NCBI GenBank assembly: GCA_914767715.1
Contig: OU612075.1
Span: 9,796,001-9,860,000, forward strand
Source of the DNA: Membranipora membranacea
Lineage: Eukaryota > Bryozoa > Gymnolaemata > Cheilostomatida > Membraniporidae
DNA: 64,000 bases
Direction: 5' to 3'
Positions 1 through 51,169 of the stretch are shown here, piece after piece (positions within the stretch are counted from its first letter, which is position 1; each line of letters opens with the position of its first letter). The position numbers were made by a program, and so were the translations under genes. The notes below the pieces were generated by a model. The model was not told the origin of the DNA. It did no database searches and saw only the letters and a list, made by a program, of their open reading frames with translations.

Positions 1-366
1 TAAATATTGGTTGTATTTCCTAAGCATGTAATCAGTAGAGGTGCATCATGGGGTGGAGCTGGGATGAGGTAGAAAGAGCATTGCATCAGTACCAAAAGAG
101 AACAGTTTGTCTTAGAAATCTACAGTAGCGGTATTGTGATGAATCTGTATCAAGTTTGCCTGATTTCTCTGTGAAATCTTGATTGATTGGACTTCACCCT
201 CAGTGGTATTATCAGAATTCATGTATTTTTGAAAGAGGATGCGTTCCATAATTTTCCGGCTGTGAAAAATGATTCAGCTAGCAATATGCTATCATACTAA
301 AATCTATCTATCTATGGTCAAGGTGCCAAGTACTGCAGTGGCCTTCAGTTTGCCTTTTATTTTCAG

Positions 367-3300
367 GTCAGTATTTGATGAATGTATTGATGACATCCCA
401 TCAGCAGATGCTCCCTTAGACAAGTTTCTCTGCTGTGATGTTTGTATGAGAAAAGATGATACAAGAGAACTGGCACAGATTTATTGTGTAATCTGTCAAG
501 AAAGGCTTTGTACCTCCCATGAAAAGGTAAATTTGCTCAGACTCAGAGAGGATACCTTTGGATATATCCGGGGTGAACGCTTTGAGATCTTATGGTTCAA
601 AATTTATTGGTTGTAAGGCAGTAGTTAGTGAATTTAATTATCTCAAAACTAAACTCCTATATGACCTTAAAATTCTCTTAATGGGTCAACTAACAGTGAG
701 CCGTCCATATCAGCTTTGGATGATTATCTTTTAACTTTATGTGTGTCAGGGCCTTGGTTGTATGTCAGGGCCTTGGTTGTGTGTCAGGGCCTTGGCTGTG
801 TGTCAGGGCCTTGGCTGTGTCAAGACCTTGGTAGAGTTACTAGATAGTTAGATGGAAATTACAAATACTAGCTAGTTTCCCCTCCTAATAGAATGATGAT
901 ATTTTGCTTAATTCTATCATGGCTGGCATGCTCAGCTCCCAGCTGTCTCAATGTAATAGACATTGAAAATTAAATTCCATGTATTTTATAGTATGTATCG
1001 GTTTAGGATAATAGCCGTCAATTTCTGATGTAACACATTTATTGCAGAGTCACAATGATGCCCTTGATGATCACATGAGGATAAGGATGGATGAGTATAA
1101 GAGAGATTTTAGAAAGATGGAGACAAGATACTGTGTTAAACATCCTAAGAAGGTTTACTCAACGGCCTGCGGAAAATGTAGTCGCATGTTTTGTTCTGTC
1201 TGTATTGAGAATATAGATACCTGCTCTGATGGTAAATATATAACATGTTTATATTTTTTCCTTAAAGACTACCCAAAGAAGTGCTTGTTTCTTTTATTGC
1301 ACATCTGAGAGACTGTGACATCATAATGCAGAGAATGGGAGTTACCTTACCTTATGGAGGCACTTTTTCCACCATCAATAATTCATGCTAAGTAGAACAT
1401 TGAATTTTTTTACCGTTCAAATCTGATAAAACTTTATTTTAAGTAACTTCCAGACTATAACATTCATTGGTCTTTGAGTAGTCTTTAAGATAGTTTTAAG
1501 CGGTCGGAGTGATAGTTAAAGCTACTGTATCATTGACTTGGAGACCCTAAGTTTTACAGAATTAGATAATATAATGAAAGAAAGTGTGCTCCAACATCGT
1601 ACCCTGATTGTCAATGAGAGATAAAAATAGTAACACAAGCAATGTTAATGATTTACATTCCTCCAGGTAATAACCACAACCTGAAGGCAATAAGTAGTTT
1701 GGTTATTCTGCTGACTTACTTGGTGAATGAGAAGAAAGTATGGATATATGATAAAGAGGAGCACCTGTTAGGAATGTCGAAACAACTGACAGCTGTCATA
1801 TCTGACTGGGATACAGAGACACAAGAGATGATTGAGAAGTTGCATGAAGCCAGAGATAAACATGTAGGTGTAGACTTTGGATGATCTGTGTGTTGTTGAA
1901 ATGACAGTTTCTATTTAGGCTGACCTCATGTTCTTGTCAATAATTATTGTAAGACCTCCCATATCCCAGCTGATTATATGGAGTTGTCTACTCAGTCTTT
2001 ATGGGAACATTACTCCCAGATGCATTCAGAGAAGCAGGTAGTTCATGACACATCCCTGAGAGAACTACCAGATATGGTATGAATGCCTATAGAGGAAGAC
2101 ATGAAACCTTTAGGCCTGTACATGACACAATGTGTTGCCGTTGGTACCAAATTTTTTATGTCCCGTCCTGCCCGAGTAAAATTTTAATGAAGGTACACAA
2201 ATTTTGGTTAAAATCGCACGGTATAGTCACTCATGGCAGTGCGAAGAATGGACGGCAAAAAGTCGGTGCCTTAGGGGCTAGGCCGCAATTTCTGCACCAT
2301 TTTGCTCGCAGTTAGTGGGCAGGCCGGAGCACACCTGGGGTCCAACAAGTCCCAGAAGTCAGTGAAGAAACGAATGCATGATTTTGATGTTTACCCCATT
2401 AGGTTATGGAGTTGATGCAGAAATATGCTGAGTTAGAGGAGAAATTGATAGATCTCAGAAATCAATCCAGAATTGAGATGACGAGTTTTCTGGATGATGA
2501 GATGGGGAGTCTACTTGATAAGCTCAGCAGACAAGTAGCAAAAATAGATACCAGACTTTTCACTTATCATGAGGTATAAACAATTACATAAAGTTTTCTT
2601 GGTCTAGGTTAGAAATTAGACTTAGATTAATTCCAAATGTGATATGTAACATCACTTTGATCAAGGAGGAAAATAAATTATTCCTTGCTTTGATCAATGA
2701 ACTCCCTCTTCATTGCTTTGATGCACAACAAAATCTATTCATATACTTTCCTTATTGATCATAATAATGTTCTCCTTCTTGCTTTGAAAGACTAGTAATG
2801 GCTAAAGAAAATGTTGAGTAATCATATTGATCGTATACCATCGGTATGCTGTCCATGTCAGGAATGCAAAAAACCCATTTTGAGTGTCGCATGATGTCTT
2901 CATTGGTTTGCGCCATAATTATACCTCAAGTCCCATCATCTCAACTGAATGTCATTATATTCTACCAGGTAGATGTGGCAAGTGGATACAAAGAGACAGA
3001 GAAACTTATAGATGAACTGATGAATATGAAGATACCTCAATATAAACCTTCATCTAATCATGTCCAGCTCTCTGATACAGGTATTCACATTATTATAAGC
3101 TCCAATCGCAATTCCAAGCTAGATGAGGCATGTTGAAAGACTTTTATTTGTTGTGATTGCCAATGCTCGTATGAACCCCTTCTATAACAGGCACACATTA
3201 TGGTTATGCCATGCCTAAGATACTAACTTGAGAACTACTTGTCCCACTTTTTTGATTTTTCATTGTTATTGTAGCTAAAGATTTGTATAGTGATATAAAA

Positions 3301-4529
3301 ACAGCCGAAACAATGCAGCTTCATGATGTTATGGTATCATTCATTCTGTTCACATTTTTGTTCTAAACTTCATAAGGAGGCATTAACTGAGTGGCATTTT
3401 TTCCTTTACTTTATAGATTACGGAGACATTCAGCTTGCTCTTCAAATTTGCTAATCATCCCAAAATCCCATCAATCTGCCCACCTTAGTCTTAGTAAATC
3501 TTGACCCTCCGACTTCTATGGAATTAGTCAGTACTGTCAAATTCTCTGAATATGTTCACTCTGTAACCAAATATCAAAATTACTTATACACTGGCCTTGA
3601 AAATAATACCATAATGAGAGCTCATGAACCCGTAAATACTAGTTCACTTTCTCAGCTTGTGAATGTAGGTGGTTGGGCATCCAGTATCCAAGTGTATAAC
3701 AATGAGCTGTATGTGCTATCACATAACACCAGTAAGGTTTATGTGTATGACTTGGCGGGTACACTTAAAAGGTCCTGGTTCCATAACAGTAGCAGTGGTT
3801 ACTTTAATAAGCTTAGGGTGGTCAATGAGAAGGTGGTTGTTCCAGATGGAGCATCACAGTCGCTAACAGTGTACACTCTTCAAGGCCGGCTAATGAAGCA
3901 GGTTAAAGTTCCTGGTATGACAAGTGACCGGAAAGCTTTAGCTGTATGTGGAGATGACTCTGTTATCTTAACTGACTACAGTGCAAACAGTGTACTCAGA
4001 GTGAACATACACAGTGGAGAGGTGATGTGGACATCTAAACATGTAAACAAACCTCAAGAAGTCGTCTGCTACAAAGAAAGATATGTACTCGTGTCTAGCT
4101 TTAACGCTGAAACAAAGATATGGATACTGGATATGGAGACAGGTTAGTTCATGATTGGCTAAACCACATAAGTGTGTTTTCTGCATTATTGTCTGACATT
4201 TTACCTTCATGGATAGGAAGCAGAAATGATTAGGCATTCAATTTGTATGAAAACCTTCCGAAGTCATATTCATGATGCGTTGCAGTAAATGCGACACAAA
4301 ACTTCGGTAAAAATTGGAGCAGCTTTATTTCACTGTTATAGCTTGAAGTACCGGTATTTCATACATTCCATCTCCATTGTTCTACCTTTCAGGAGAGAAG
4401 GTAGGTGAAGTTTGTGGAGAGACCGGACATTCTAATTCACACTATGACCTCGATGTTTGTGATGACACCCTGATTATTGCTAAATATAATCAGAAGACAG
4501 TACAGTATTACAAGCTCAACTCAGCATGA
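367..4529 (+). pseudogene. Gene A copy 1: TRIM-like RING/B-box/propeller gene, broken
   Basis: Exons matching 2-8 of the intact copies lie at 367-526, 1048-1231, 1667-1863, 2403-2573, 2969-3080, 3417-4142 and 4393-4529, all with GT-AG junctions and matching phases. Exon 1, which encodes the start codon and RING finger, is gone: about 375 bp between 'aaaatctatc' and 'tatggtcaagg' is deleted, with the junction near 304-312. In the propeller exon a glutamine codon (CAA in copies 2-4) is TAA at 3452-3454. The other exons stay open, so decay is recent. A transcript could still give a RING-less B-box/coiled-coil fragment ending just before the propeller, but I infer loss of function. The possibility that this is a truncated decoy cannot be excluded from sequence. 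Confidence 0.88.
741..831 (+). repeat. ~20-bp minisatellite in intron of gene A copy 1
   Basis: About five head-to-tail copies of a ~20-bp motif built on 'gtgtgtcagggccttggt', the last one degenerate (caagaccttggt). The matching intron in units 2, 3 and 4 has a single copy, so this is a local expansion private to unit 1. Confidence 0.9.
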
Positions 4530-6840: not shown

Positions 6841-6849
6841 ATAGGGTAG

Positions 6850-7518: not shown

Positions 7519-7983
7519 CTTAGTCCAATCCAACTCTCCTTGAGTGCTGTATGGGACATGTCTTACTGAACACATGCAGCCCAGGCTTCAACACACACAC
7601 AGAACTGCTGTTTAGGACTTGAGTGGTACGACATCTCCCTTACAGCACCTCCCACATGTCTTACAACACCCATCGCCAGCGACGGTTTTGTTGCCTATTC
7701 AGAACAGGATAATTTGTTGTAATGCTTCTATTGTTACTTCGAGTCCAGCGGTCAGGGCCACCTTAACACAAATTTATGCTGCTAAACTGGGCGTTGGCTG
7801 GCCACGAGTGTTGTAAGATGTGTGGCAGGTGCATTATTGGATATGTTTTACAACACTCAAGAGTCAAGGCCTAAACAGCAGTGCTGTGTGTGTGTTGAAG
7901 CCTGGGCTGCATGTGTTCAGTAAGACATGTCCCATACAGCACCTGTCACATTTCTCATAGCACCCAAGTGTTGGATTAGACTA
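7519..7983. mobile_element. Fold-back element with long terminal inverted repeats, unit 1
   Basis: The left arm (about 7519-7627, through 'gtgctgtatgggacatgtct' and 'cagcccaggcttcaacacac') is repeated in reverse complement at about 7845-7983. The core of the arm (~80 bp) matches almost perfectly and the outer part (tagtccaatccaa against ttggattagacta) imperfectly. The ~200-bp centre shows no coding capacity. This fits a non-autonomous fold-back DNA transposon or MITE. Unit 3 has the same element at the same place, so insertion preceded duplication. Confidence 0.75.
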
Positions 7984-14328: not shown

Positions 14329-15797
14329 ATATGATGTAAATATTTTAGACATGATATTTGTATAAACTTTTTTACAATGCTATTGCACCAGTGGTGTCCA
14401 ATCAAAAATGCTGACTGCAAAAAGCTTTGATAGATTTGTGTCTTTGTTCTTTATCTCTTTGGGAAATCGCCGTCGGGCTACCCTTTTTGGCAATCACGAT
14501 TTTGCAATAATTTACCTCACTTATTTTTAGAGTCCTTTTGCTCCATTTCAATTAAGAACGTAGTGGAGGGAGGCTTCAAATTTGCCAAATGATATTTTTA
14601 TATCAAATATATTACGTTACAAACCATAATCACGCAAACAGTTAACAGCCAATTTCGAAAAAAAGGCAGTTTACTAAAGTGTGTCAGTAGCCTGTGTTTA
14701 CAAGTACCAAACAAACCTTGTCTAGACAGGCTAGTGTGTCAAGTGATCATCCCTCCAGCAATAAGGCTGACAAAATGTTTCCACTTTGTAGGAGGGGGAT
14801 ACTGCATCCGTCACATTTGGCAAAAACGCCTGTAAAAAATCCATAAAGCCTCGCATCAGTTCTATCTGACAGTGCAAGTGAAAAGAAGTCATCAAACGTA
14901 CACGCATCATTGCATATATACAACGTAAAACAGGAAAAAGGATTGATGTCTGTTCTAAGGACATCACTCTAACCTGTCAGTTCAACATGAATCTCTACAA
15001 AGCATGATGATGCAAGATCAACTTGTCAATGGGAAAAGTGATGAGTTCCTGTTTCAATAACTTTGAGTTGTCCCTCTAACAAACAGGGAACCATAACTCT
15101 AGAAAAAAAGTAATAGTAACGCCTGCGCACTGATATTATAATGATATCCGGATACTGAAGTGAAACTGCCAGAGTCCAACTGCTCCACCTACCTGACTGT
15201 GGTGAAATTCTTCTTACTGTGGGTAGACTTCATACTTATACTTATATACAGGGGTAAGTAACAGTATTGAATTGAGTGTAACGTGATGGGTGAAAACCTT
15301 ATAAGTTTGTGTATATAGATCATTACTGTAGATATTGTCAAAACAGAGCAACTAGTAGTAGTACAAAAGAGTCACAGGTCTACGTGACTCAAAACTAACC
15401 GCTTGGGCCTCTGTCAAGTGGACTGTCTGCTCTGCTGCGTTTGAGTGACCTCAAATCCAATCTTTATAGGCCTTGATATGATTGGCACCAGAAATTCAGA
15501 GCTAATACATTTGCTACTGCCCCCTACCCTGGTTTTTGTTGTTTGAAAGTAATTTATGATAGAGAAGATATATTAACTCTCCTGAGAATCTAAAATCCCG
15601 CTATCCTGATAGTATTGCTTGGAGAACTTCCTCCTAGCTGTTCATGCATACCTCATTCAATGAATTTAGTCAACTGCAGCTGCAGCTCATTCATCAGCAT
15701 TCAATTTCAAATCCAAATGCCTATGCCAAGTTCTCCTTAGATGCATGCACAGAAGGAGCTAGATCTAATGCATTAATTACAAGATATTTCAATGTTT
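14329..15797. other. Intergenic spacer between gene B and the next gene A (unit 1)
   Basis: Shared with 27844-29427 and 45099-46612. It holds a short segment (about 14750-14930) whose minus-strand frame (FDDFFSLALSDRTDARLYGF) is recognisable in three units but interrupted. Otherwise no gene is seen. The last ~400 bp before the next unit presumably include gene A upstream sequence. Confidence 0.45.
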
Positions 15798-16204
15798 TAA
15801 ATATTGGTTGTATTTCCTAAGCATGTAATCAGTAGAGGTCATCATGGGGTGGAGCTGGGATGTGGTAGAAAGAGCATTGCATCAGTACCAAAAGAGAAAA
15901 GTTTGTCTTAGAATTCAACAGTAGCGGCTTTGTGATGAATCTGTATCAATTTTGCCTGATTTCTCTGTGAAATCTTGATTGATTGGACTTCACACTCAGT
16001 GGTATTATCAGAATTCATGTATTTTTTGAAAGAGGATGCGATCCATAATTTTCCGGCTGTGAAAAATGATTCAGCTAGCAATATGCTTTCATACTAAAAT
16101 CTATCCAGTGCCTAATGTAGTCCTCAGCAGTTCTGATTAGATTAAAGAATGCTTTTATCGATATTAAAACATTAACATTCAATTATTTTAGCTGAGTAAA
16201 TATA

Positions 16205-19200
16205 ATGGCAGCAGCAGAGACTAACGAACAAGCCTTCACGGAATGTGGCTTATGTTTTGTAAATGATCAGCTGAAAAGATTGCCCTGTAATCCTGGACAC
16301 ATCTACTGTGTAACATGTCTAACCAAGGATTCAGAGGTTACCAAGATTATAAAATGTCCACTATGCAGGTAAACTTTCTTTTTTACACTTCATAGCTTGA
16401 TTTTGTTATTGTAGGCCCTACATAATGATATTGTGATCAGTTGATGATAATAATTGATAGGCTATATGATTTGTTTATAATTACTATATGGTCAAGGTGC
16501 CAAGTACTGCAGTGGCCTTCAGGTTGCCTTTTATTTTCAGATCAGTATTTGATGAATGTATTGATGACATCCCATCAGCAGATGCTCCCTTAGACAAGTT
16601 TCTCTGCTGTGATGTTTGTATGAGAAAAGATGATACAAGAGAACTGGCACAGATTTATTGTGTAATCTGTCAAAAAAGGTTTTGTACTTCCCATGAAAAG
16701 GTAAATTTGCTCAGACTCAGAGAGGATACCTTTGGATATATCCAGGGTAAAGACTTTGAGATCTTATGGTTCATAATTTATTGGTTGTAAGGCAGTAGTT
16801 AGTGAAATTAATTATCTCAAAACTAAGCTCCTATATGACCTTAAAATTCTTTTAATGAGTTAACTAACAATGAGCAATCCATATCAGCTTTGGATGATTA
16901 TCTTTTGACTTTATGTGTGTCAGGGCCTTGGTAGAGTTACTTGATAGTTAAATGGAGATTACGAATACTAGCCAGTTTCCCCTCCTAATAGAATGATGAT
17001 ATTTTGCTTAATTCTATCATGGCTGGCATGCTCAGCTCCCAGCTGTCTCAATGTAATAGACATTGACAATTAAATTCCATGTATTATATAGTATGTATAG
17101 GTTTAGGATAATAGCCGTCTATTTCTGATGTAACACATTTATTGAAGAGTCACAATGATGCCCTTGATGACCACATGAGGATAAGGATGGATGAGTATAA
17201 GAGAGATTTTAGAAAGATGGAGACAAGATACTGTGTCAAACATCCTAAGAAGGTTTACTCAATGGCCTGCGGAAAATGTAGTCGCGTGTTTTGTACTGTC
17301 TGTGTTGAGAATATAGATACCTGCTCAGATGGTAAATATATAACATGTTTATATTTTTTCCTTAAAGACTACCCGAATAAGTGCTTGTTTCTTTTATTGC
17401 ACTTCTGGGAGACTGTGACATCATAATGCAGAGAATGGGAGTTACCTTAGTTTATGGAAGCTCTTTTTCCACGATCAATAATCCATGCCAAGTAGAACAG
17501 GTAGAAAGTTTTGTACCATCAAAAAACTGATAAAACTTTCAGACTATAACATTCATTGGTCTTTGAGTAGTCTATAAGATATAGTTTTAAGTGGTCGGAG
17601 TGATAGTTAAAGCTACTGTATCATTGACTTGGAGACCCTAAGTTTTACAGAATTAGATAATATAATGAAAGAAAGTGTGCTCCAACATCGTACCCTGATT
17701 TTCAATGAGAGATAAAAATAGTAACACAAGCGATGTTAATGATTTACATTCCTCCAGGTAATAACCACAACCTGAAGGTAATAAGTAGTTTGGTTACTCT
17801 GCTGACTGACTTGGTGAATGAGAAGAAAGTATGGATATACGATAAAGAGGAGCACCTGTTAGGAATGTCAAAACAACTGACAGCTGTCATATCCGACTGG
17901 GATACAGAGACACAAGAGATGATTGAGAAGTTGCATGAAGCCAGAGATAAACATGTAGGTGTAACATTTGGAGGATCTTTGTGTTGTTGAAATGACAGTT
18001 TCTATTTAGGCTGACCTTATGTTATTGTCAATAATTATTGTAAGACCTCCCATATCCCAGCTGATCATATGGAGTTGTCTACTCAGTTTTTATGGGAACA
18101 TTAATCCCAGATGCATTCAGAGAAGCAGGTAGTTCATGACACACCCCTGAGAGAACTACCAGATATGGTATGAATGCCTATAGAGGAAGACATAAGACCT
18201 TTAGGCCTGTACATGACACAATGTGTTGCCGTTGGTACCAAATTTTTTATGTCCCTTCCTGCCCGAGTAAAACAAGTAAAACTAATCTTGGTTAAAATCG
18301 CACGGTATAGTCACTCACGGCATTGCGAAGAATGGACGACAAAATAGTGGGTGCTTTAGGGTCCAGGCCGCAATTTCTGCACCATTTTGCTCTCAGTTAG
18401 TGGGCAGGTCGGAGCACACCTGGGGTCCAACAAGTCCCAGTAGTCAGTGAAGAAACGAATGCATGATTTTGATGTTTACCCCATTAGGTTATGGAGTTGA
18501 TGCAGAAATATGCTGAGTTAGAGGAGAAATTGATAGATCTCAGAAATCAATCCAGAATTGAGATGACGAGTTTTCTGGATGATGAGATTGGGAGTCTACT
18601 TGATAAGCTCAGCAGACAAGTTGCAAAAATAGATACCAGACTTTTCACTTATCATGAGGTATAAACAATTACATAAAATATTCTTGGTTGATCTAGTTTA
18701 AGAATTAGACTTAACTTTTCAAAGAGTTTCCTTCTAAATTTAGATATATTAATAGTATATTGTAATTTCCATTGTAATTTGTGACATCAAAAATTTTCTT
18801 GGTCTTGGTTAGAAATTAGACTCTTCTCTTTTCAAAGAGTTTTCTTCTAAATAATGATTCGTCAATAGTATATTGTAATTCCCAATGTGATATGTAACAT
18901 CACTTTGATCAAGGAGGAAAATAAATTACTCCTCGCTTTGATGCACGACAATATCTATTCATCTACTTTCCTCATTGATCACAGTAATGTTCCCCATACT
19001 TGCTTTGAAAGAATAGTAATGGCTAAAGAAAATGTTGAGTAATCATATTGTTCGTATACCATCGAAATGCTGTCGATGTCAGGAATGCAAAAAAACCCAT
19101 TTTTAGTGTCGCATGACGTCTTCATTGGTTTGTGCCATAACTGTACCTCAAGTCTCATCATCTCAACTGAATGTCATTATATTCTACCAGGTAGACGTTG

Positions 19201-20752
19201 CAGGAGGATACAAAGAGACAGAGAAACTTATAGATGAACTGATGAATATGAAGATCCCTCAATATAAACCTTCATCTAATCATGTCCAGCTCTCTGATAC
19301 AGGTATTCACGTTATTATAAGCTCCAATCGCGATTCCAAGCTAGATGAGGCATGTTGAAAGACTTTTATTTGTTCTGATTGCCAATGCGCGTATGAACCC
19401 CTTCTAAAACAGGCACACATTAGGGTTGTGTCATGCCTAAGATACTAACTTGAGAACTACTTGTCCCACTTTTTTGATTTTTCATTGTTATTGTAGCTAA
19501 AGATTTGTATAGTGGAATAAAAGCAGCCGAAACAATGCAGCTTCATGATGTTATGGTATCATTCATTCTGTTCACACTTTTGTTCTAAACTTTGTAAGGA
19601 GGCATTAACTGAGTGGCATTCTTTCCTTTACTTTATAGATTACGGAGACATTCAGCTTGCTCTTCAAATTTGCCAATCATCCCAAAATCCCATCAATCTG
19701 CCCACCTTAGTCTTAGTCAATCTTGACCCTCCGACTTCTATGGAATTAGTCAGTACTGTCCAATTCTCTTCATCAGTTCACTCTGTAACCAAATATCAAA
19801 ATTACTTATACACTGGCCTTGATAATAGTACCATTATGAGAGCGCATGAGCCTGTAAATACCAGTCCACCTTCTCAGCTTGTGAATGTAGGTGGTTGGGC
19901 ATCCAGTATCCAAGTGTATAACAATGAGCTGTATGTGTTATCACATGACACCGATAAGGTTTATGTGTATGACTTGGCGGGTAGACTTAAAAGGTCCTGG
20001 TCCCATAACAGTAACAGTCGTTACTTTAATAAGCTTAGGGTGGTCAATGAGAAGGTGGTTGTTCCAGATGGAGCATCACAGTCGCTAACAGTGTACACTC
20101 TTCAAGGTCAGCTAATGAAGCATGTTAAAGTTCCTGGTATGACAAGAAACTGGAAAGCTTTAGCTGTATGTGGAGATGACTCTGTTATCTTATCTGACCG
20201 CGGCGCAAACAGTGTACTCAGAGTGAACATAGACAGTGGAGAGGTGATGTGGACATCTAAACATGTAAACGAACCTCTAGGAGTCATCTGCTACAAGGAC
20301 AGATATGTACTCGTGTCTAACTACAACGCTGAAACCAAGATATGGATACTGGATATGGAGACAGGTTAGTTCATGATTGGCTAAACCACATAATTGTGTT
20401 TTCTGCATTATTGTCTGACGTTTTACCTTCATGGATAGGAAGCAGAAATGATTAGGCATTCAATTTGTATGAAAACCTGCCGAAGTCATATTCATGATGC
20501 GGTGCAGTAAATGCAACACAAAACTTTGGTAAAAATTGGAGCAGCTTTATTTCACTGTTATAGCTTGAAGTACCGGTATTTCATGACATTCCATTTCCAT
20601 TGTTCTACCTTTCAGGAGAGAAGGTAGATGAAGTTTGTGGAGAGACCGGACAACATACTGACCACTTTGACCTTGATGTCTGTGATGACACCCTGATTAT
20701 TGCTAAATATGATCAGAAGACAGTACAGTATTACAAGCTCAACTCAGATTGA
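16205..20752 (+). CDS. Gene A copy 2: TRIM-like E3 ligase with RING, two B-boxes, coiled coil and beta-propeller (616 aa)
   Basis: Exons are 16205-16368, 16541-16700, 17148-17331, 17758-17954, 18488-18658, 19191-19302, 19639-20364 and 20616-20752; all junctions are GT-AG, phases agree, and they sum to 1851 nt. Order of domains: RING (C14, C17, C28, H32, C35, C38, C51, C54), B-box 1 (C78, C81, C95, C98, C103, H106), B-box 2 (C137, H140, C149, C152, C157, C160, H173), coiled coil (about 174-329), then a propeller of about six 42-residue blades (about 366-616). The RING predicts ubiquitin transfer, the coiled coil dimerisation and the propeller target binding, probably in the cytosol. The layout resembles TRIM-NHL proteins without a filamin domain. 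The start is the first ATG before the RING, in context 'aaataATGG'. A pyrimidine tract ending 'ttttag' just upstream suggests a 5' UTR intron. Confidence 0.88.
18675..18895 (+). repeat. ~110-bp tandem duplication in intron 5 of gene A copy 2
   Basis: Two diverged adjacent copies of a segment containing 'cttttcaaagagtttycttc' and 'aatagtatattgtaattyc'. Unit 3 has a single copy (32310-32400), and units 1 and 4 have a shortened version. Confidence 0.7.
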
Positions 20753-22733: not shown

Positions 22734-24745
22734 ATGAGTCTCAAATTTATTATTGGCTGCACTGTGGTGGTTTACATGATCGGCACTGTCACAAGCCAAG
22801 GTAAGTATTAAAAGGAGGAACGATTTTTATATTTAACAATGCGATTCTTAATGGGAATACCATGAAAAACATTAATAATAATGAATTGTTGCTGACAATA
22901 AAAATATACATATATAAATATTGCTCAAAAGTCCTTCAAAAATGGCAAAAATAAGTGATAGATGAGATATAGATCGATTTTGATCCATTCTGTCTGCATT
23001 AGTTTTGTGCCTCCCTTCCGCTGATGAGTCGTGGTGGGGAATCAATTTTGAATGAAGGTGAGGTGCCATCTTCCAGCACTTCGTAAATATGAGTGTGATA
23101 TATTTATCCTTCTGACCATTTAAACACATCTATCTGCACTGTTTTTAACTCTCTGCAAAGACTTATTAGATCATCAAATACTCCATCAACTTTTAATGGA
23201 CAACTTATCAATTATGACTTTTATCAAAAGACAACTTTTAAAAGACAAGTAATGCCAAGTTATTGAACGTACAAAGTCATCAACCTATGCCCTGACACTG
23301 CTCCGAAGATCAGGTGTTGATAGCACTGCAATAGCACTGTTCTATAAGGCAAGGATACTATGATCCGTTCTGTCGTTTGCCTGTCCTGTGTGGTACCCAT
23401 ATCTGAGTAAAACTAATATAGATGAACTTGAAAGTTTTGAAAGGATGTACACAAGAAGAATTTTACCCCTTACAGACAATTATGATGAAAGACTGTCCAA
23501 ACTTATTATTGAAGAACTTAGTGTACATTTAAATGTCTTAAGTCTACGATATGTTTCTAAAGTTCAATCCTACGAGGACCATGTTTGCAATGATTTGCTT
23601 CAGCTGTCTCAGCATGTTGGAAGGACAGCATTTTATGATAAACTGCTGTTTAAAAAATTAATTTAATTCCATTCCTTCTTTTTCACACGGCCGAATTTGT
23701 CAAGATAGATTGGTCGATGATGAAAAAAAAGTAATTATTTAGGAAAAAATATTTTTCTCTTCAACCACTATTAGCTCAATTCACATTCCTTTACATATTG
23801 TTTTTTTTCTTTCTTCTCTTGGCACAAAACGAAAAGCATTTTTTTTCTTTAAAATTATTACGATGCCGAAAGAATATTAAAACAAATACATATTTTCTCT
23901 TATAGCCGGCTTCGACGGACAAATTGGTGATCCCACCTCGTTTACCTGGTGGCCCTCCAGGCTTCGACGCCACTCCAGCTCCAGCTCGTTCGCCGTTCTT
24001 CGGCTGCTCTGCTACCAACGTCTGCTTCTGTCCTGTGTTTGTGTCGTCATGTCCACATAGATGCGCTGGAGGTAGATATCAGGCTGATCAGACAAACGAT
24101 GGATGTTTGTTTGCAGACTGCAGATGTCGTAAGTCTCTACTTAGACCAAGTTTAACCCTAAGATAATTTCTCGAGTTCAACTATTTTATAAAAAGTGGTG
24201 CACATGTAATTGTCTCAGTGTGTAATACTAGCCTGGGCGGGCTGTTTGGAGATAGACATGGACACGCCCTCACAGCCTGCCCAGAAATTATCATTCTTTT
24301 AACTTATTTAAAAACGATTTTTCTTTTGAGTTTCAATAAATCAAGTATTATTAGCCAAATTGCCAAAAAAAAGTTTGTGATGAGGCACCTACTCGCTGGT
24401 CAGTAACAATTTATCTTCCTACTAGTGAATAGAGTGCAAATCTGTATCTGTAAACAAACAGCATAGCTGACAAAGCATGAAGGTCAGACTAGATTATACA
24501 CAGGATTGAAGCTTATTAAAAAAATTTAAAGTAATTACCTGTATAATTTAGAGCCGGGAGTAGCTAAACTCAAACTGGGCCGCTGTCCAAACTTCAGGCC
24601 TTACAGATACGTGTTTCGCTAAGATCTTCTTTGTGAGACCGACTCAGATTGCTCTGGTGCTGACGAATGCTGCCAAGTAGGAACGGACACCCGTCTGCAG
24701 TGTCTAGCTGCTCTACCAGAACGGCCAACAACAGGAAGGAAATGA
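22734..24745 (+). CDS. Secreted cysteine-rich protein, antistasin-like plus WAP/colipase-like segment (118 aa)
   Basis: Three-exon model: 22734-22800, 23961-24128 and 24624-24745 (357 nt), donors gtaagt and gtaagt, acceptors ccctccag and cgctaag, phases 1 and 1. Residues 1-22 are a signal peptide (MSLKFIIGCTVVVYMIGTVT, then SQ). After a short Pro/Ala-rich stretch, residues 38-78 carry the antistasin-type spacing (C44, C46, C53, C57, G60, D69-G-C71, C76-R-C78). Residues 79-105 carry C82-x5-C88-x5-C94-C95-x9-C105, as in the first half of WAP or colipase-like folds. Antistasin domains are known serine-protease inhibitors, so an extracellular inhibitor or matrix role is the likely inference. The third acceptor is not strong. 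A different acceptor at 23905 gives the wrong phase. The gene is specific to the foreign block of unit 2. Confidence 0.6.
22801..23269. other. No gene seen (first intron of the secreted-protein model)
   Basis: AT-rich. I found no supported coding or RNA feature. Confidence 0.4.
23270..23666 (+). pseudogene. LINE reverse-transcriptase C-terminal fragment (plus strand)
   Basis: The frame reads SSTYALTLLRRSGVDS, ... ALFYKARIL, stop, SVLSFACPVWYPYLSK, ... ELESFERMYTRRILPL. The 'LLRRSGV ... YK..I.SVL.FA.PVW.P ... LE..ER...RIL' pattern is typical of the end of non-LTR retrotransposon ORF2 proteins. One stop lies in the middle, and the upstream reverse-transcriptase core is absent. It lies inside the large intron of the secreted-protein gene. 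Confidence 0.72.
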
Positions 24746-25479: not shown

Positions 25480-25690
25480 AATTGAGAGGTTTGATGACAT
25501 GGCTCCGAGTGGCATTTTTGAATGAAGCAAGGGATTGACTCAGCTTAATATGGTTGGGTAATTCGTTAAACTTCTGAACACCGAAATTAGCCAAAGCAAA
25601 TCTTAAATTTTCCTTGGATAGTCTACACCCAGAACTTTTAGCAAGCCGAGTTTCACGAGTTATTTTCTCGGGGAGCAGATTGGTATCAAT
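25480..25690 (-). pseudogene. LINE reverse-transcriptase tail (minus strand)
   Basis: On the minus strand the frame reads EKITRETRLAKSSGC, ... ENLRFALANFGVQKFNELP, ... SLASFKNATRSHVIKPLN, stop. The 'TR...L......R......G...FN.LP..I....SL.SFK' pattern is the usual extreme C-terminus of many LINE ORF2 proteins. It differs from the plus-strand fragment at 23270-23666 and is a separate insertion. The sequence to about 25250 is probably its 3' UTR. Confidence 0.65.
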
Positions 25691-26275
25691 TATTGGGACT
25701 AAACTATTAACAATTAATAATGAATATTTTTATAACCACTCGATAAAATATCTCATTGCCATTTGCAATTACAAGCACTAGTACACTCAACACATATAGT
25801 TTTTTTAAACAGTACACCAACCACTTGCTAAGTACTGGCTCTACGCTATAGTTATTATGAATTTTATTTTATACCAATCAATGCAAGAAGCAAATAAGAC
25901 AATGCTCTTGAGAACAACAACAAACAAGAAACAATAAGAAGGCAGTTATTGATGTTTCCAACATCAATAATATTTAAGATGAGTTTAATAGATAATACTA
26001 AAAAGTGAGATGCAACTCATGTTTGGTACTCAGCCTGAAACACAATCACTTAATTATTTGTCTTAGAGTTTTGAGATGTAAAATTCAAAATGAAGTATCT
26101 GGTACTGTTTCCTTTTATATGAATTCATCGGACGGTTTCAACATTTAATTTGATTACTTAGTGTATGTGTTTAGGGCTAAAACAATACATGCCTTGCTCC
26201 CATCCAATTCGAATTGGTGGTGTGTAGTCAAAATAATACTGTTTATTGAAAGTGAATGCAGAATTTACTGATCAG
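25691..26275. other. No gene seen (AT-rich)
   Basis: It may be further decayed LINE sequence on the minus strand, but I cannot support a frame. Confidence 0.4.
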
Positions 26276-29834: not shown

Positions 29835-32800
29835 ATGGCAGCAGCAGAGACTAACGATCAAGCCTTCACGGAATGTGGCTTATGTTTTGTTAATGATCAG
29901 CTGAAAAGATTGCCCTGTAATCCTGGACACATCTACTGTGTAACATGTCTAACCAAGGATTCAGAGGTTACCAAGATTATAAAATGTCCACTATGCAGGT
30001 AAACTTTCTTTTTTACACTTCATAGCTTGATTTTGTTATTGTAGGCCCTACATGATGACATTGTGGTCAGTTGATGATAATAATTGATAGGCTATATGAT
30101 TTGTTTATAATTACTATATGGTCAAGGTGCCAAGTGCTGCAGTGGCCTTCAGTTTGCCTTTTATTTTCAGATCAGTATTTGATGAATGTATTGATGACAT
30201 CCCATCAGCAGATGCTCCCTTAGACAAGTTTCTCTGCTGTGATGTTTGTATGAGAAAAGATGATACAAGAGAACTGGCACAGATTTATTGTGTAATCTGT
30301 CAAAAAAGGTTTTGTACTTCCCATGAAAAGGTAAATTTGCTCAGAGAGGATGCCTTTGGATATATCCAGGGTAAAGGCTTTGAGAGTTTCTCGTTCAAAA
30401 TTTATTGGCTGTAAGTCAGTAGTTAGTGAATTTAATTATCTCAAAACTAAGCTCCTATATGACCTTAAAATTCTCTTAATGAGACAACTAACATTGAGCC
30501 GTCCATATCAGCTTTGGATGATTATCTTTTGACTTTATGAGTGTCAGGGCCTTGGTAGAATTACTAGATAGTTGGATGGAAATTACAAATACTAGCTAGT
30601 TTCCCCTCCTAATAGAATGATGATATTTTGCTTAATTCTATCATGGCTGGCATGCTCAGCTCCCAGCTGTCTCAATGTAATAGACATTGACAATTAAATT
30701 CCATGTATTATATAGTATGTATAGGTTTAGGATAATATCCGTCTATTTCTGATGTAACACATTTATTGAAGAGTCACAATGATGCACTTGATGACCACAT
30801 GAGGATAAGGATGGATGAGTATAAGAGAGATTTTAGAAAGATGGAGACAAGATACTGTGTCAAACATCCTAAGAAGGTTTACTCAATGGCCTGCGGAAAA
30901 TGTAGTCGCGTGTTTTGTACTGTCTGTGTTGAGAGTATAGATACCTGCTCTGATGGTAAATAGATAACATTTATATTTTTTCCTTAAAGACTACCCAAAG
31001 AAGTGCTAGTTTCTTTTATTGCACTTCTGGGAGACTGTGACATCATAATGCAGAGAATGGGAGTTACCTTAGTTTATGGAAGCTCTTTTTCCACGATCAA
31101 TAATTCATGCCAAGTAGAACATTGAAGTTTTGTACCATTAAAAAACTGATAAAACTTTATTTTAAGTAACTTCCAGACTATAACATTCATTGGTCTTTGA
31201 GTAGTCTTTAAGATATAGTTTAAAGTGGTCGGAGTGATAGTTAAAGCTACTGTATCATTGACTTGGAGACTCTAAGTTTTACAGAATTAGATAATATAAT
31301 GAAAGAAAGTGTGCTCCAACACCGTACCCTGATTTTCAATGAGAGATAAAAATAGTAACACAAGCAATGTTAATGATTTACATTCCTCCAGGTAATAACC
31401 ACAACCTGAAGGTAATAAGTAGTTTGGTAACTCTGCTGACTGACTTGGTGAATGAGAAGAAAGTATGGATATACGATAAAGAGGAGCACCTGTTAGGAAT
31501 GTCAAAACAACTGACAGCTGTCATATCTGACTGGGATACAGAGACACAAGAGATGATTGAGAAGTTGCATGAAGCCAGAGATAAACATGTAGGTGTAGCA
31601 TTTGGAGGATTTTTTGTGTTGTTGAAATGACAGTTTCTATTTAGGCTGACCTTATGTTATTGTCAATCATTATTGTAAGACCTCCCATATCCAGCTGATT
31701 ATATGGAGTTGTCTACTCAGTCTTTATGGGAACATTAATCCCAGATGCATTCAGAGAAGCAGGTAGTTCGTGACACATCCCTGAGAGAACTACCAGATAT
31801 GGTATGAATGCCTATAGAGGAAGACATAAGACCTTTAGGCCTGTACATGACACAATGTGTTGCCGTTGGTATCAAATTTTTTATGTCCCGTCCTGCCCGA
31901 GTAAAACAAATCTTGGTTAAAATCGCACGGTATAGTCACTCACGGCATTGCGAAGAATGGACGACAAAATAGTGGGTGCTTTAGGGTCCAGGCCGCAATT
32001 TCTGCACCATTTTGCTCTCAGTTAGTGGGCAGGTCGGAGCACACATGGGGTCCAACAAGTCCCAGTAGTCAGTGAAGAAACGAATGCATGATTTTGATGT
32101 TTACCCCATTAGGTTATGGAGTTGATGCAGAAATATGCTGAGTTAGAGGAGAAATTGATAGATCTCAGAAATCAATCCAGAATTGAGATGACGAGTTTTC
32201 TGGATGATGAGATTGGGAGTCTACTTGATAAGCTCAGCAGACAAGTAGCAAAAATAGATACCAGACTTTTCACTTATCATGAGGTATAAACAACTACATA
32301 AAATTTTCTTGGTCTAGGTTAGAAATTAGACTCTTCTCTTTTCAAAGAGTTTTCTTCTAAATAATGATTCGTCAATAGTATATTTTAATTCCCAATGTGA
32401 TATATAACATCACTTTGATCAAGGAGGAAAATAAATTACTCCTTGCTTTGATGCACGACAATATCTATTCATCTACTTTCCTCATTGATCACAATAATGT
32501 TCCCCTTCTCGCTTTGAAAGAATAGCAATGGCTAAAGAAAGTGTTGAGTAATCATATTGTTCCTATACCATCGGAATGCTGATGATGTCAGGAATGCAAA
32601 AAAACCCATTTTTAGTGTCGTATGACGTCTTCATTGGTTTGTGCCATAACTGTACCTCAAGTCTCATCATCTCAACTGAATGTCATTATATTCTACCAGG
32701 TAGACGTAGCAGGAGGGTACAAAGAGACAGAGAAACTTATAGATGAACTGATGAATATGAAGATCCCTCAATATAAACCTTCATCTAATCATGTCCAGCT

Positions 32801-34261
32801 CTCTGATACAGGTATTGACATTATTATAAGCTCCAATCGCAATTCCAAGCTAGATGAGGCATCTTCAAAGACTTTTATTTGTTCTGATTGCCAATGCGCG
32901 TATGAACCCCTTCTAAAACAGGTACACATTAGGATTATGCCATGCCTAAGATACTAACTTGAGAACTACTTGTCCCACTTTTTTGATTTTTCATTGTTAT
33001 TGTAGCTAAAGATTTGTATAGTGGAATAAAAACAGCCGAAACAATGCAGCTTCATGATGTTATGGTATCATTCATTCTGTTCACATTTTTGTTCTAAACT
33101 TGGTAAGGAGGCATTAACTGAGTGGCATTTTTTCCTTTACTTTATAGATTACGGAGACATTCAGCTTGCTCTTCAAATTTGCCAATCATCCCAAAATCCC
33201 ATCAATCTGCCCGCCTTAGTCTTAGTAAATCTTGACCCTCCGACTTCTATGGAATTAGTCAGTACTGTCCAATTCTCTTCATATGTTCACTCTGTAACCA
33301 AACATCAAAATCACTTATACACTGGCCATGATAATGGAACCATAATGAGAGCTCATGAACCTGTAAATACTAGTTCACTTTCTCAGCTTGTGAATGTAGG
33401 TGGCGATGTATCCAGTATCCAAGTGTATAACAATGAGCTGTATGTGTTATCACATGACACCAGTAAGGTTTATGTGTATGACTTGGCGGGTAGACTTAAA
33501 AGGTCCTGGTCCCATAACAGTAGCAGTGGTTTATTTAATAAGCTTAGGGTGGTCAATGAGAAGGTGGTTGTTCCAGATGGAGCATCACGGTCGCTAACAG
33601 TGTACACTCTTCAAGGCCGGCTAATGAAGCAGGTTAAAGTTCCTGGTATGACAAGTAACTGGAAAGCTTTAGCTGTATGTGGAGATGACTCCGTTATCTT
33701 AACTGACGTAGGCGCAAACAGTGTACTCAGAGTGAACATAGACATTGGAGAGGTGATGTGGACATCTAAACATGTAAACCAACCTCTAGGAGTCATCTGC
33801 TACAAGGACAGATATGTACTCGTGTCTAACTACAACGCTGAAACCAAGATATGGATACTGGATATGGAGACAGGTTAGTTCATGATTGGCTAAACCACCT
33901 AATTGTGTTTTCTGCATTATTGTCTGACGTTTTACCTTTACGGATAGAAAGCAGAAATTATTAGGCATTCAATTTGTATGAAAACCTGCCGAAGTCATAT
34001 TCATGATGCGTTGCAGTAAATGCGACACAAAACTTTGGTAAAAATTGGAGCAGCTTTATTTCACTGTTATAGCTTGAAGTACTGGTATTTCATGACATTC
34101 CATCTCCATTGTTCTACCTTTCAGGAGAGAAGGTAGGTGAAGTTTGTGGAGAGACTGGACATTACGATCAACACTTTGACCTTGATGTTTGTGATGACAA
34201 CCTGATTATTGCTAAATATAATCAGAGGACAGTACAGTATTACAAGCTCAACTCAGCATGA
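29835..34261 (+). CDS. Gene A copy 3: TRIM-like RING/B-box/coiled-coil/propeller protein (616 aa)
   Basis: Exons are 29835-29998, 30171-30330, 30772-30955, 31392-31588, 32113-32283, 32700-32811, 33148-33873 and 34125-34261, with the same phases and exon lengths as copy 2. All zinc ligands of RING and both B-boxes are kept. Compared with copy 2 the first six exons change only two residues (E8D, N163S). The propeller changes about 31, for example W416D, A417V, D435S, R457G, Y458L, R517V, E541Q and the 584-588 loop. Six of these codons in exon 7 differ at two or three bases. Gene B downstream (from 39776) is intact, making unit 3 the only unit with both genes open. Confidence 0.88.
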
Positions 34262-47030: not shown

Positions 47031-50000
47031 ATGGCAGCAGCAGAGACTAACGATCAAGCCTTCACGGAATGTGGCTTATGTTTTGTCAATGATCAGCTGA
47101 AAAGATTGCCCTGTAATCCTGGACACATCTACTGTGTAACATGTCTAACCAAGGATTCAGAGGTTACCAAGATTATTAAATGTCCACTATGCAGGTAAAC
47201 TTTCTTTTTTACACTTCATAGCTTGAATTTGTTATTGTAGGCCCTACATAATGATATTGTGGTCAGTTGATGATAATCATTGATAGGCTATATGGTCAAG
47301 GTGCCAAGTACTGCAGTGGCCTTCAGTTTGCCTTTTATTTTCAGATCAGTATTTGATGAATGTATTGATGACATCCCATCAGCAGATGCTCCCTTAGACA
47401 AGTTTCTCTGCTGTGATGTTTGTATGAGAAAAGATGATACAAGAGAACTGGCACAGATTTATTGTGTAATCTGTCAAAAAAGGTTTTGTACTTCCCATGA
47501 AAAGGTAAATTTGCTCAGACTCAGTGAGGATACCTTTGGATATATCTAGGGTAAAGGCTTTGAGATCTTATGGTTCATAATTTATTGGTTGTAAGGCAGT
47601 AGTTAGTGAATTTAATTATCTCAAAAGTAAGCTCCTATATGACCTTAAAATTCTTTTAATGAGTCAACTAACATTGAGCAGTCCATATCAGCTTTGGATG
47701 ATTATCTTTTGACTTTATGTGTGTCAGGGCCTTGGTAGAGTTACTTGATAGTTAAATGTAGATTACGAATACTAACCAGTTTTCCCTCCTAATAGAATGA
47801 TGATATTTTGCTTAATTCTATCATGGCCGGCATGCTCAGCTCCCAGCTGTCTCAATGTAATAGACATTGACAATTGATTTCCATGTATTATATAGTATGT
47901 ATAGGTTTAGGATAATATCCGTCTATTTCCGATGTAACATATTTATTGAAGAGTCACAATGATGCACTTGATGACCACATGAGGATAAGGATGGATGAGT
48001 ATAAGAGAGATTTTAGAAAGATGGAGACAAGATACTGTGTCAAACATCCTAAGAAGGTTTACTCAATCGCCTGCGGGAAATGTAGTCGCGTGTTTTGTTC
48101 TGTCTGTATTGAGAATATGGATACCTGCTCTGATGGTAAATATATAACATTTTTATATTTTTTCCTTAAAGACTACCCAAATAAGTCCTTGATTCTTTTA
48201 TTGCACTTCTGGGAGACTGTGACATCATAACGCAGAGAATGGGAGTTACCTCACCTTATGGAGGCACCTTTTCCACCATCAATAATTCATGCCAAGTAGA
48301 ACATCGAATTTGTTTACCATTCAAATCTGATAAAACTTTATTCTATGTAATTTCCAGACTATAACATTCATTGGTCTTTGAGTAGTCTTTAAGATATAGT
48401 TTAAAGTGGTCGGAGTGATAGTTAAAGCTACTGTATCATTGACTTGGAGATCCTAAGTTTTCCAGAATTAGATAATATAATGAAAGAAAGTGTGCTCCAA
48501 CATCGTACCCTAATTTTCAATGAGAGATAAAAATAGTAACACAAGCAATTATAATGATTTACATTCCTCCAGGTAATAACCACAACCTGAAGGCAATAAG
48601 TAGTTTGGTTACTCTGCTCACTGACTTGGTGAATGAGAAGAAAGTATGGATATATGATAAAGAGGAGCACCTGTTAGGAATGTCAAAACAACTGACAGCT
48701 GTCATATCTGCCTGGGATACAGAGACGCAAGAGATGATTGAGAAGTTGCATGAAGCCAGAGATAAACATGTAGGTGTAGCATTTGGAGGATCTTTGTGTT
48801 GTTGAAATGACAGTTTCTATTAAGGCTAACCTCCTGTTATTGTCAATAAGTATTGTAAGACCTCCCATATCCCAGCTGATTATATGGAGTTGTCTACTCA
48901 GTCTATATGGGAACATTAATCCCAGATGCATTCAGAGAAGCAGGCAGTTCATTCAATTTCTGCACCATTTTGCTCTCAGTTAGTGGGCAGGTCGGAGCAC
49001 ACCCGGGGTCCAACAAGGCCCAGTAGTCAGTGAAGAAACGAATGCATGATTTTGATGTTTACCCCATTAGGTTATGGAGTTGATCCAGAAATATGCTGAG
49101 TTAGAGGAGAAATTGATAGATCTCAGAAATCAATCCAGAATTGAGATGACGAGTTTTCTGGATGATGAGATTGGGAGTCTACTTGATAAGCTCAGCAGAC
49201 AAGTAGCAAAAATAGATACCAGACTTTTCACTTATCATGAGGTATAAACAATTACATAAAACATTCTTGGTCTAGGTTAGAAATTGGACTTAGATTAATT
49301 CCAAATGTGATATGTAAAATCACTTTGATCAAGGAGGAGAATATATTACTCCTTGCTTTGATGAACAACAATATCTATTCATCTACTTTCTTTATTGATC
49401 ATTATAATGTTCTCCTTCTTGCTTTGAAAGAATAGTAATAGCTAAAGAAAGTGTTGAGTAATCATATTGATTGTATACCATCGGAAAGCTGTCGATGTCA
49501 GGAATGCAAAAAACCCATTTTTAGTGTCGCATGACGTCTTCATTGGTTTGTGCCATAACTGTACCTCAAGTCTCATCATCTCAACTGAATGCCATTATAT
49601 TCTACCAGGTAGACGTGGCAGGAGGATACAAAGAGACAGAGAAACTTATAGATGAACTGATGAATATGAAGATCCCTCAATATAAACCTTCATCTAATCA
49701 TGTCCAGCTCTCTGATACAGGTATTCACATTATTATAAGCTCCAATCGCAATTCCAAGCTAGATGAGGCATGTTGAAAGTCTTTTATTTGTTCTGATTGG
49801 CAATGCGCGTATGAACCCCTTCTAAAACAGGCACACATAAGGGTCATGCCATGCCTAAGATTCTAACTTAAAAACTACTTGTCCCATTTTTTTGATTTTT
49901 CATTGTTATTGTAGCTAAAGATTTGTATAGTGGAATAAAAACAGCCGAAACAATGCAGCTTCATGATGTTATGGTATCATTCATTTTGTTCACATTTTTG

Positions 50001-51169
50001 TTCTAAACTTTGTAAGGAGGCATTAACTGAGTGGCATTTTCTCCTTTACTTTATAGATTACGGAGACATTCAGCTTGCTCTTCAAATTTGCCAATCATCC
50101 CAAAATCCCATCAATCTGCCCACCTTAGTCTTAGTCAATCTCGACCCTCCGACTTCTATGGAATTAGTCAGTACTGTTCAATTTTCTTCATATGTTCACT
50201 CTGTAACCAAATATCAAAATCACTTATACACTGGCCATGATAATGGAACCATAATGAGAGCTCATGAACCTGTAAATACTAGTTCACCTTCTCAGCTTGT
50301 GAATGTAGGTGGTTGGGTATCCAGTATCCAAGTGTATAATAATGAGCTGTATGTGTATTCACGTAAACCCAGGAAGGTTTATGTGTATGACTTGGCGGGT
50401 AGACTTAAAAGGTCCTGGTCCCATAACAGTAACAGTACTTGCTTAAATAAGCTTAGGGTGGTCAATGAGAAGGTGGTTGTTCCAGATGGATCATCACGGT
50501 CGCTAACAGTGTACACTCTTCAAGGCCGGCTAATGAAGCAGGTTAAAGTTCCTGGTATGACAAGTAGCGTGAAAGCATTAGGTGTATGTGGAGATGACTC
50601 TGTTATCTTATCTGACAGCGGTGCAAACAGTGTACTCAGAGTGAACATAGACAGTGGAGAGGTGATGTGGACATCTAAACATGTAAACAACCCTCAAGGA
50701 GTCGTCTGCTACAAGGACAAATATGTACTCGTGTCTAACCATAACAGTGAAACAAAGATATGGATACTGGATATGGAGACAGGTTAGTTCATGATTGGCT
50801 AAACCACATAATTGTGTTTTCTGCATTATTGTCTGACCTTTTACCTACATGGATAGGAAGAAGAAATGACTAGGCATTCAATTTGTATGAAAACCTTCCG
50901 AAGTCATATTCATGATGCGTTGCAGTAAATGCGACACAAAATTTCGGTAAAATTTGGAGCAGCTTTATTTCACTGTTATAGCTTGAAGTACCGGTATTTC
51001 ATACATTCCATCTCCATTGTTCTACCTTTCAGGAGAGAAGGTAGGTGAAGTTTGTGGAGAGACCGGACATGATAATCACCACTTTGACCTTGATGTTTGT
51101 GATGACACCCTGATTATTGCTAAATATAATCAGAAGACAGTACAGTATTACAAGCTCAACTCAGCATGA
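47031..51169 (+). CDS. Gene A copy 4: TRIM-like RING/B-box/coiled-coil/propeller protein (616 aa)
   Basis: Exons are 47031-47194, 47345-47504, 47952-48135, 48573-48769, 49071-49241, 49609-49720, 50057-50782 and 51033-51169. RING and B-box ligands are complete. Compared with copy 3 it has a few changes in the chassis (for example M147I, T158S, V161I, I164M and an Asp to Ala in the coiled coil) and about 26 replacements in exon 7. Several are radical: the loop at 432-435 reads RKPR instead of HDTS, and 457-459 reads TCL instead of GLF. The 3' flank groups with unit 1, not units 2 or 3. The conserved AATAAA downstream is AATATA here. No gene B is linked to this copy in the window. Confidence 0.88.

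Follow-up and report, generated by a model that had tools for sequence, protein, structure and literature searches.

A 64,000-nt stretch of the genome of the bryozoan Membranipora membranacea (assembly GCA_914767715.1, contig OU612075.1, positions 9,796,001 to 9,860,000 of the forward strand; here called the window) carries four tandem plus-strand copies of one gene, spaced 13.3 to 17.2 kb apart. The predicted product has a TRIM-like layout, with a putative RING finger and two B-box-like fingers, a helical-looking region, and a C-terminal propeller that is read as six bladed and NHL-like in fold. Replacement differences between the copies are concentrated in the loops on the top face of this propeller, and the ligase part of the protein is conserved. 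The reading that we favor, with a probability of roughly 0.6, is that these genes form a tandem family of TRIM-like E3 ubiquitin ligases in which selection has diversified the top face of the propeller for recognition, likely of foreign or fast-changing proteins. All copy comparisons are based on the four copies from this one genome. Residue numbers follow a nine-exon model of copy 2 (630 residues); those of an earlier, first-pass annotation are lower by 14, because the earlier model skips a possible 59-nt exon and starts the next exon at position 19639. Exon 8 of the nine-exon model corresponds to exon 7 of the earlier one.

Replacement excess in the top loops of the propeller

Copies 2 and 3 differ by replacement at 2 codons and silently at 8 codons of exons 1 to 6, and at 31 and 10 codons, respectively, of the propeller, with six codons of the main propeller exon differing at two or three bases. 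The first-pass annotation had arrived at these counts by eye, and they were reproduced exactly. For this pair, the contrast between the ligase part and the propeller gave a P value of 0.0019 in Fisher's test; the same contrast was weaker in the remaining five copy pairs (P = 0.021 to 0.07). Nei-Gojobori estimates of omega (the ratio of replacement divergence, dN, to silent divergence, dS) over the six pairs were 0.07 to 0.27 in the ligase part (from exon 2) and 0.73 to 1.33 in the propeller. The ligase part, which had been described as frozen, is indeed conserved and is under purifying selection (omega of about 0.2).

The D-A and B-C loops of the six blades, referred to here as the top loops, comprise 64 codons (Table 1). 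Their boundaries were drawn by hand after the alignment had been inspected, so loops defined from an AlphaFold model provide a more independent check; faces were assigned from strand topology rather than from the spatial coordinates of the model. With hand-assigned strands, the top loops had a dN of 0.216 over the four copies, compared to 0.055 for the A-B and C-D turns and 0.026 for the strands. Replacements were present in 30 of the 64 top-loop codons, compared to 8 of 33 turn codons (P = 0.047) and 16 of 153 strand codons (P = 2e-8), and every one of the 12 top loops contained 2 to 4 replacement columns. The eight replacement clusters originally named, two loops per blade, all coincide with or overlap variable D-A or B-C loops. 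The accompanying description of the A-B and C-D turns as nearly constant was overstated, as 6 of 19 C-D residues and 2 of 14 A-B residues vary over the four copies. When the 54 variable sites of residues 386 to 630 were slid along the propeller, none of the 244 other registers reached the observed 30 sites in top loops, and the next-highest registers were a shift of one residue and a shift of one blade (42 residues).

Pairwise divergence of the introns was 0.036 to 0.061. Divergence at the first and second codon positions of the top loops was 0.156 to 0.211, which was above that of the introns in all six pairs (P = 2e-5 to 2e-8); the contrast is thus kept when exon rates are set against intron divergence. 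We also fitted our own fixed-partition codon model of the GY94 type with a shared dS, which gave omega values of 0.20 for the ligase part, 3.96 for the top loops, and 0.53 for the rest. An omega of 1 for the top loops was rejected, with twice the log-likelihood difference (2dlnL) at 46.2. Alternative topologies gave the same outcome (2dlnL of 42.7 and 45.4), and dependence on a single tree was therefore rejected. When double and triple changes were allowed, top-loop omega was 3.0 and 2dlnL was 23.8; without copy 1, 2dlnL was 31.6, or 15.3 with multinucleotide changes. Multinucleotide mutation as the sole cause was likewise rejected (P = 1.1e-6 to 0.005). Using loops defined by AlphaFold strands and exon 8 only, we obtained top-loop omega values of 2.4 to 3.6 (P = 1.7e-8 to 0.005), and a per-site mixture of three topologies, which allows for a mosaic history, gave P values of 1.5e-10 to 5.5e-4. 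Over all settings, omega with a shared dS was 2.4 to 4.0 in the top loops, about 0.4 to 0.6 in the rest, and about 0.2 in the ligase part. An error in exon phase as the cause of the propeller pattern was rejected as well, since the propeller frame is identical in gene models with and without the 59-nt exon and top-loop omega was 3.89 without that exon.

The site model M2a identified a class with an omega of about 8 to 13 when run on the whole protein or on the propeller, whereas the ligase part yielded no such class. Thirteen codons scored above 0.8 in the whole-protein run, and 8 did so with multinucleotide changes, in site lists that are naive empirical Bayes lists from four sequences without the Bayes empirical Bayes correction. 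Codon 399, which is on the lists from the propeller-only runs, sits nearer the bottom face.

Selection compared with other possible causes of the loop excess

Several results weigh against a selected, one-sided top face on a TRIM-type ligase. A model in which top-loop omega is fixed at 1 and the local rate is free (3.8-fold) fits as well as selection (log likelihood, -3404.2 versus -3404.5), as does its counterpart with multinucleotide changes (2.9-fold; -3388.0 versus -3387.4), and with both parameters free omega is 1.9 and the rate is 2.3 or 1.7; this likelihood comparison used the hand-drawn loops and one topology. The anticipated dN/dS above 1 at the loops holds with a gene-wide dS, and a loop-local dS lowers it to only 1.2 to 1.4. 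Third positions in the top loops are also above introns (0.125 to 0.234), variable top-loop bases are spread evenly over the codon positions (19, 20, and 20 of 64), and fourfold sites inside the top loops differ at 12 of 123 pair-sites (0.098), compared to 0.082 in the ligase part. Both fitted models overpredict the replacement columns (36.6 and 35.6 versus 30 observed). Silent columns were seen at 4 of the 64 top-loop codons, with 1.9 +/- 1.4 expected under selection and 5.3 +/- 2.3 under a raised rate, so the two are not separable by this count. Among the 30 top-loop replacement columns, 18 are multi-hit and only 12 are single-base changes, and the ratio of replacement to silent single-base columns is 12:4 in the top loops, which is close to the 24:15 of the remaining propeller, and 14:17 in the ligase part. 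The expectation that variable sites would lie on one face and not both is borne out in rates (omega of 3.58 for the top loops versus 0.84 for the turns), but by column counts the contrast is marginal, with P values of 0.047 for the hand labels and 0.058 for the AlphaFold labels (exon 8 alone; 22 of 50 top codons versus 7 of 32 turn codons). Of the variable strand residues, 10 of 16 lie nearer the top, which is not clearly more than the background of 80 of 153. Finally, the copy 3 protein scores under the Pfam cutoffs for both zf-RING_2 (18.7 bits; cutoff, 27.3) and zf-B_box (15.2 bits over residues 134 to 162; cutoff, 24.1).

Under relaxed constraint, the loops would drift freely after duplication while the strands and the ligase part stayed constrained. 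Loops are generally less constrained, and copy 1 is already dead, but drift alone cannot pass the neutral rate, yet the first and second positions of the top loops exceed introns in every pair. Moreover, a neutral simulation put the number of top-loop replacement columns at 16.2 +/- 3.4, compared to the 30 observed, and the A-B and C-D turns, which are also loops, have an omega of only 0.84 with four copies and 0.55 without copy 1. We reject relaxed constraint as very improbable because top-loop divergence is above that of introns, unless the local mutation rate is raised. Such a raised local substitution rate, caused by hypermutation or by conversion from unseen diverged paralogues and confined to loop codons, would require no selection at the protein level. 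Its fit to the codon data equals that of selection, and it is consistent with the evenness over codon positions and the slightly elevated loop fourfold sites, and the mosaic tree splits described below suggest that copies exchange sequence. However, it would have to strike 12 separate short stretches that keep register with the blades. No elevation is seen at fourfold sites within 3 codons of the loops (6 of 196 pair-sites, compared to 28 of 371 at greater distances and 42 of 512 for the ligase part), introns 7 and 8, which flank exon 8, show ordinary divergence (0.020 to 0.058), and the rest of the propeller has an intron-like silent divergence of 0.059. We therefore regard a raised local rate as unlikely. 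Because it and selection fit equally well, positive selection is not established over it; selection is the more likely cause of the top-loop excess, although unproved.

Gene copies, predicted fold, and neighboring features

Judged from their reading frames, three gene copies are intact and one is dead (Table 1). The stop codon of copy 1 is the seventh codon of exon 8, and its ligase part (codons 56 to 349) carries 8 private replacements, as expected of a dead copy, compared to 1, 1, and 3 in copies 2, 3, and 4, respectively. The possible 59-nt exon is in frame only with the acceptor before 19656, whereas the earlier model splices exon 6 to 19639; sequence alone favors neither model. Combined with the acceptor before 19639, the 59-nt exon leads to an early stop and loss of the propeller, so a regulated short form lacking the propeller, made through the alternative exon and acceptor, is possible. 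Informative sites (16774 to 16973 and 19718 to 20662) change the tree split along the locus, with copies 1 and 3 against 2 and 4 in intron 2, mostly copies 1 and 4 against 2 and 3 elsewhere, and mixed splits in exon 8. These mosaic patterns suggest exchange between copies.

Table 1. Positions in the window of the gene copies, the copy 2 exons, and the 12 top loops
Feature	Coordinates	Strand	Description	Basis
Copy 1	367..4529	+	Without exon 1; stop early in exon 8; pseudogene	
Copy 3	29835..34261	+	Nine exons, frame open throughout	
Copy 4	47031..51169	+	Nine exons, frame open throughout	
Copy 2 exon 1	16205..16368	+	Putative RING finger with start codon, C3HC4 ligands	Translation, splice sites, Pfam
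Copy 2 exon 2	16541..16700	+	End of RING region, first B-box-like zinc finger	Cys/His spacing by eye
Copy 2 exon 3	17148..17331	+	Second B-box-like finger	Translation, splice sites, Pfam
Copy 2 exon 4	17758..17954	+	Helical-looking, possibly coiled coil	Sequence character by eye only
Copy 2 exon 5	18488..18658	+	Helical-looking, possibly coiled coil	By eye only
Copy 2 exon 6	19191..19302	+	Linker	Translation, splice sites
Copy 2 possible exon 7	19497..19555	+	59 nt	Frames and splice sites in sequence
Copy 2 exon 8	19656..20364	+	Blades 1 to 5 (in part) and closing D strand	AlphaFold2, Foldseek, VIA-align
Copy 2 exon 9	20616..20752	+	Blade 5 D strand, blade 6 strands A to C, stop	Assigned by blade repeat
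Blade 1 D-A loop	19764..19775	+	Residues 386-389, variable	
Blade 1 B-C loop	19821..19832	+	Residues 405-408, variable	
Blade 2 D-A loop	19893..19901	+	Residues 429-431, variable	
Blade 2 B-C loop	19947..19958	+	Residues 447-450, variable	
Blade 3 D-A loop	20007..20027	+	Residues 467-473, variable	
Blade 3 B-C loop	20070..20084	+	Residues 488-492, variable	
Blade 4 D-A loop	20133..20153	+	Residues 509-515, variable	
Blade 4 B-C loop	20199..20213	+	Residues 531-535; 531 different in 4/4 copies	
Blade 5 D-A loop	20262..20279	+	Residues 552-557; 555 different in 4/4 copies	
Blade 5 B-C loop	20322..20339	+	Residues 572-577, variable	
Blade 6 D-A loop	20639..20662	+	Residues 594-601; 599 and 601 different in 4/4 copies	
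Blade 6 B-C loop	20708..20722	+	Residues 617-621, variable	

The RING spacing, read by eye, is C3HC4 (C14, C17, C28, H32, C35, C38, C51, and C54), and the first B-box was recognized from Cys/His spacing only. An AlphaFold2 model of exon 8 is a propeller (predicted local distance difference test score [pLDDT], 74; predicted template modeling score [pTM], 0.78). In structure alignment, its nearest solved folds are LRP6-type and TRIM2/TRIM3 NHL propellers, which are tied, and Foldseek and VIA-align also match it in fold to the NHL domains of Lin41, Brat, and Trim71. No NHL family was among the matches listed by a Pfam scan with an E-value limit of 10, in which filters remove most matches above 0.1; the best match listed was PQQ_2 (29.2 bits in copy 3, with a cutoff of 27.6, and 27 bits in copy 2), and phmmer gave a weak match to Brat (E = 0.014). 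No SPRY match was listed by the Pfam scans either, and the C-terminal part is modeled as a propeller instead, which agrees with the original call of a propeller rather than a B30.2 domain. Neither NACHT nor WD40 was among the Pfam matches listed for the predicted protein. A protein homologue search found none of 6,638 candidates at E values of 0.001 or below, and the phage records searched gave no match. By its sequence features, the product would be classed as TRIM-like in layout, not as a B30.2 TRIM, and, by Pfam, not as an NHL protein at the sequence level.

The spacers between copies contain other features. Two copies of a gene with membrane-span-like open reading frames (ORFs) that ends in a RING, which we take to be RNF26-like, lie in the copy 1-2 and copy 3-4 spacers (10196-14328 and 40398-45098), with no third copy within the window; the RING exon matches zf-C3HC4_3 at 51.4 bits. 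As a control, this gene was of little use: two putative exons could be compared, the RING exon with a dS of 0.140 and a dN of 0.024 and a putative membrane exon with a dS of 0.066 and a dN of 0.034, and a third had gaps. In the second copy, a stop interrupts the frame resembling 10661-10966, a stretch that may be noncoding. Most of the copy 2-3 spacer (21.6 to 27.8 kb) is without matches of at least 150 bases elsewhere in the window. This spacer contains, by eye, a candidate gene for a secreted cysteine-rich peptide (22735-24140; a signal-peptide-like exon and then a Cys-rich exon), and presumably ORF remnants resembling the ends of non-long-terminal-repeat retrotransposon proteins (23364-23663 on the plus strand and 25481-25729 on the minus strand). 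GC-rich patches (0.44 versus about 0.38) at 6580-6864 (minus strand) and in a paralogous stretch near 36.2 kb have a minus-strand ORF with PHD/RING-like cysteines that is under Pfam cutoffs.

Possible ligands and precedents

A diversifying propeller face has precedents in itself, in HNWD and HERC5. The HNWD genes het-d, het-e, and het-r of Podospora anserina encode NACHT receptors with a WD40 propeller, in which each repeat has two positively selected codon pairs, one belonging to the d-a loop and the other to the b-c turn, and all of these codons sit on the propeller top (PMC1805685, PMC2873952). The bryozoan genes resemble them in the excess of change that every blade shows in its D-A and B-C loops and in the apparent exchange of sequence between family members, a likeness of working rather than of descent. 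They differ in that the effector is HET and NACHT there and RING/B-box here, and in that the WD40 repeats there are reshuffled and homogenized whereas the blades here are diverged and without a listed WD40 match. HERC5 is an antiviral E3 ligase whose predicted beta-propeller has a cluster of positively selected codons (PMC4021598), so an E3 ligase with a selected propeller is not unprecedented. In contrast with the present genes, HERC5 is a HECT ligase with a seven-bladed RCC1-like propeller, was compared between species rather than between tandem copies, and has 27 of 50 selected codons in blades 1 and 2 rather than in the top loops of every blade (PMC4021598). Teleost finTRIM, btr, and trim35/hltr and also TRIM5alpha/TRIM22 are multigene TRIM families whose C-terminal recognition domain has variable loops under positive selection (PMC3137616), as would be the case for the top loops of the present genes, but that domain is B30.2/SPRY there and a propeller here. 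TRIM56, with an NHL-like C terminus, is among 24 bat TRIM genes with positive selection, although its selected residues (1, 6, and 10) are N-terminal and outside the propeller (PMC10145180). In the sea urchin (purpuratus), a deuterostome, the TRIM annotation covers 140 genes, some of which are induced in coelomocytes, with TRIM45-, TRIM71-, TRIM33-, and TRIM56-named genes induced in UVB (ultraviolet B)-treated immune cells; the accessible text contains no selection analysis of this expansion (PMC13043383). No report of diversifying selection on a TRIM propeller was found among the titles and beginnings of abstracts listed in the searches, which were mostly without subscription journals and leave its absence unproved.

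The TRIM-NHL proteins (TRIM2, TRIM3, TRIM32, TRIM71, Brat, and Lin41; subfamily C) belong to TRIM group 1 and differ from the predicted protein in that no NHL match is listed for it in Pfam. Group 1 TRIMs are reported to be highly conserved among vertebrates (PMC2533329), whereas the tandem copies here are hypervariable on the top face.

We hypothesize that selection for new binding specificities diversifies the D-A and B-C loops, which are grouped on the propeller top, from copy to copy; a shared ubiquitylation machinery would then carry a recognition face particular to each copy. In those NHL domains that bind RNA, the RNA sits on the top face (PMC9070667), which makes the top face a plausible ligand site here. 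It would most likely bind foreign or fast-changing proteins (of a virus, a parasite, or other non-self), and the RING, by analogy with TRIM ligases, would ubiquitylate the bound protein or a signaling complex or would signal from the face. The first-pass annotation had proposed a diversifying recognition surface as in pathogen-restriction TRIMs; this is supported in part, namely for the TRIM-like layout, the conserved ligase part, and the one-face excess over introns, and positive selection, a pathogen target, and ligase activity are not established.

The diversity could instead serve recognition of something other than pathogens, such as allorecognition, gamete interaction, or host substrates split among paralogues. 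HNWD, the closest known pattern, is an allorecognition system (PMC1805685), characterized NHL domains bind host RNA and proteins (PMC9634614, PMC9070667), and the diversity among human TRIM NHL domains likewise resides in the top opening and the loops that connect the blades (PMC9634614). The RING/B-box layout, however, resembles that of immune TRIMs, and a number of sea urchin TRIMs, which may or may not be related to this family, are induced in coelomocytes, though by UVB (PMC13043383); we find this alternative rather doubtful. It is quite improbable, in our view, that the propeller is an RNA-binding NHL domain with diversifying RNA specificity. The fold match to Lin41, Brat, and Trim71 and the evolutionary plasticity of NHL RNA recognition (PMC5908797) would agree with this, but RNA-binding NHL domains are described as having positively charged top surfaces (PMC9070667), whereas the net charge of the top loops, counting loop residues only, is 0, -2, -2, and +2 in copies 1 to 4. 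With net positive loops in only one of the four copies, RNA is not favored as the ligand.

Under our preferred reading, of a TRIM-like ligase family with a selected top face, a more specific and tentative proposal, to which we give slightly less than even odds, is that these genes constitute an animal immune-receptor family: an HNWD-like repertoire on a TRIM-type ligase, in which the 12-loop ring on the propeller top would be a diversifying antigen-binding surface carried by tandem, recombining copies. Such a family would employ a propeller in the role that B30.2 has in vertebrate TRIMs. The 12 loops and the high-scoring codons are direct targets for binding and swap experiments. If the reading is true, TRIM-like ligases can diversify the top face of a propeller, with a loop geometry like that of fungal allorecognition receptors, and the family would be a concrete candidate for how invertebrates, which lack antibodies, generate ligase specificity.
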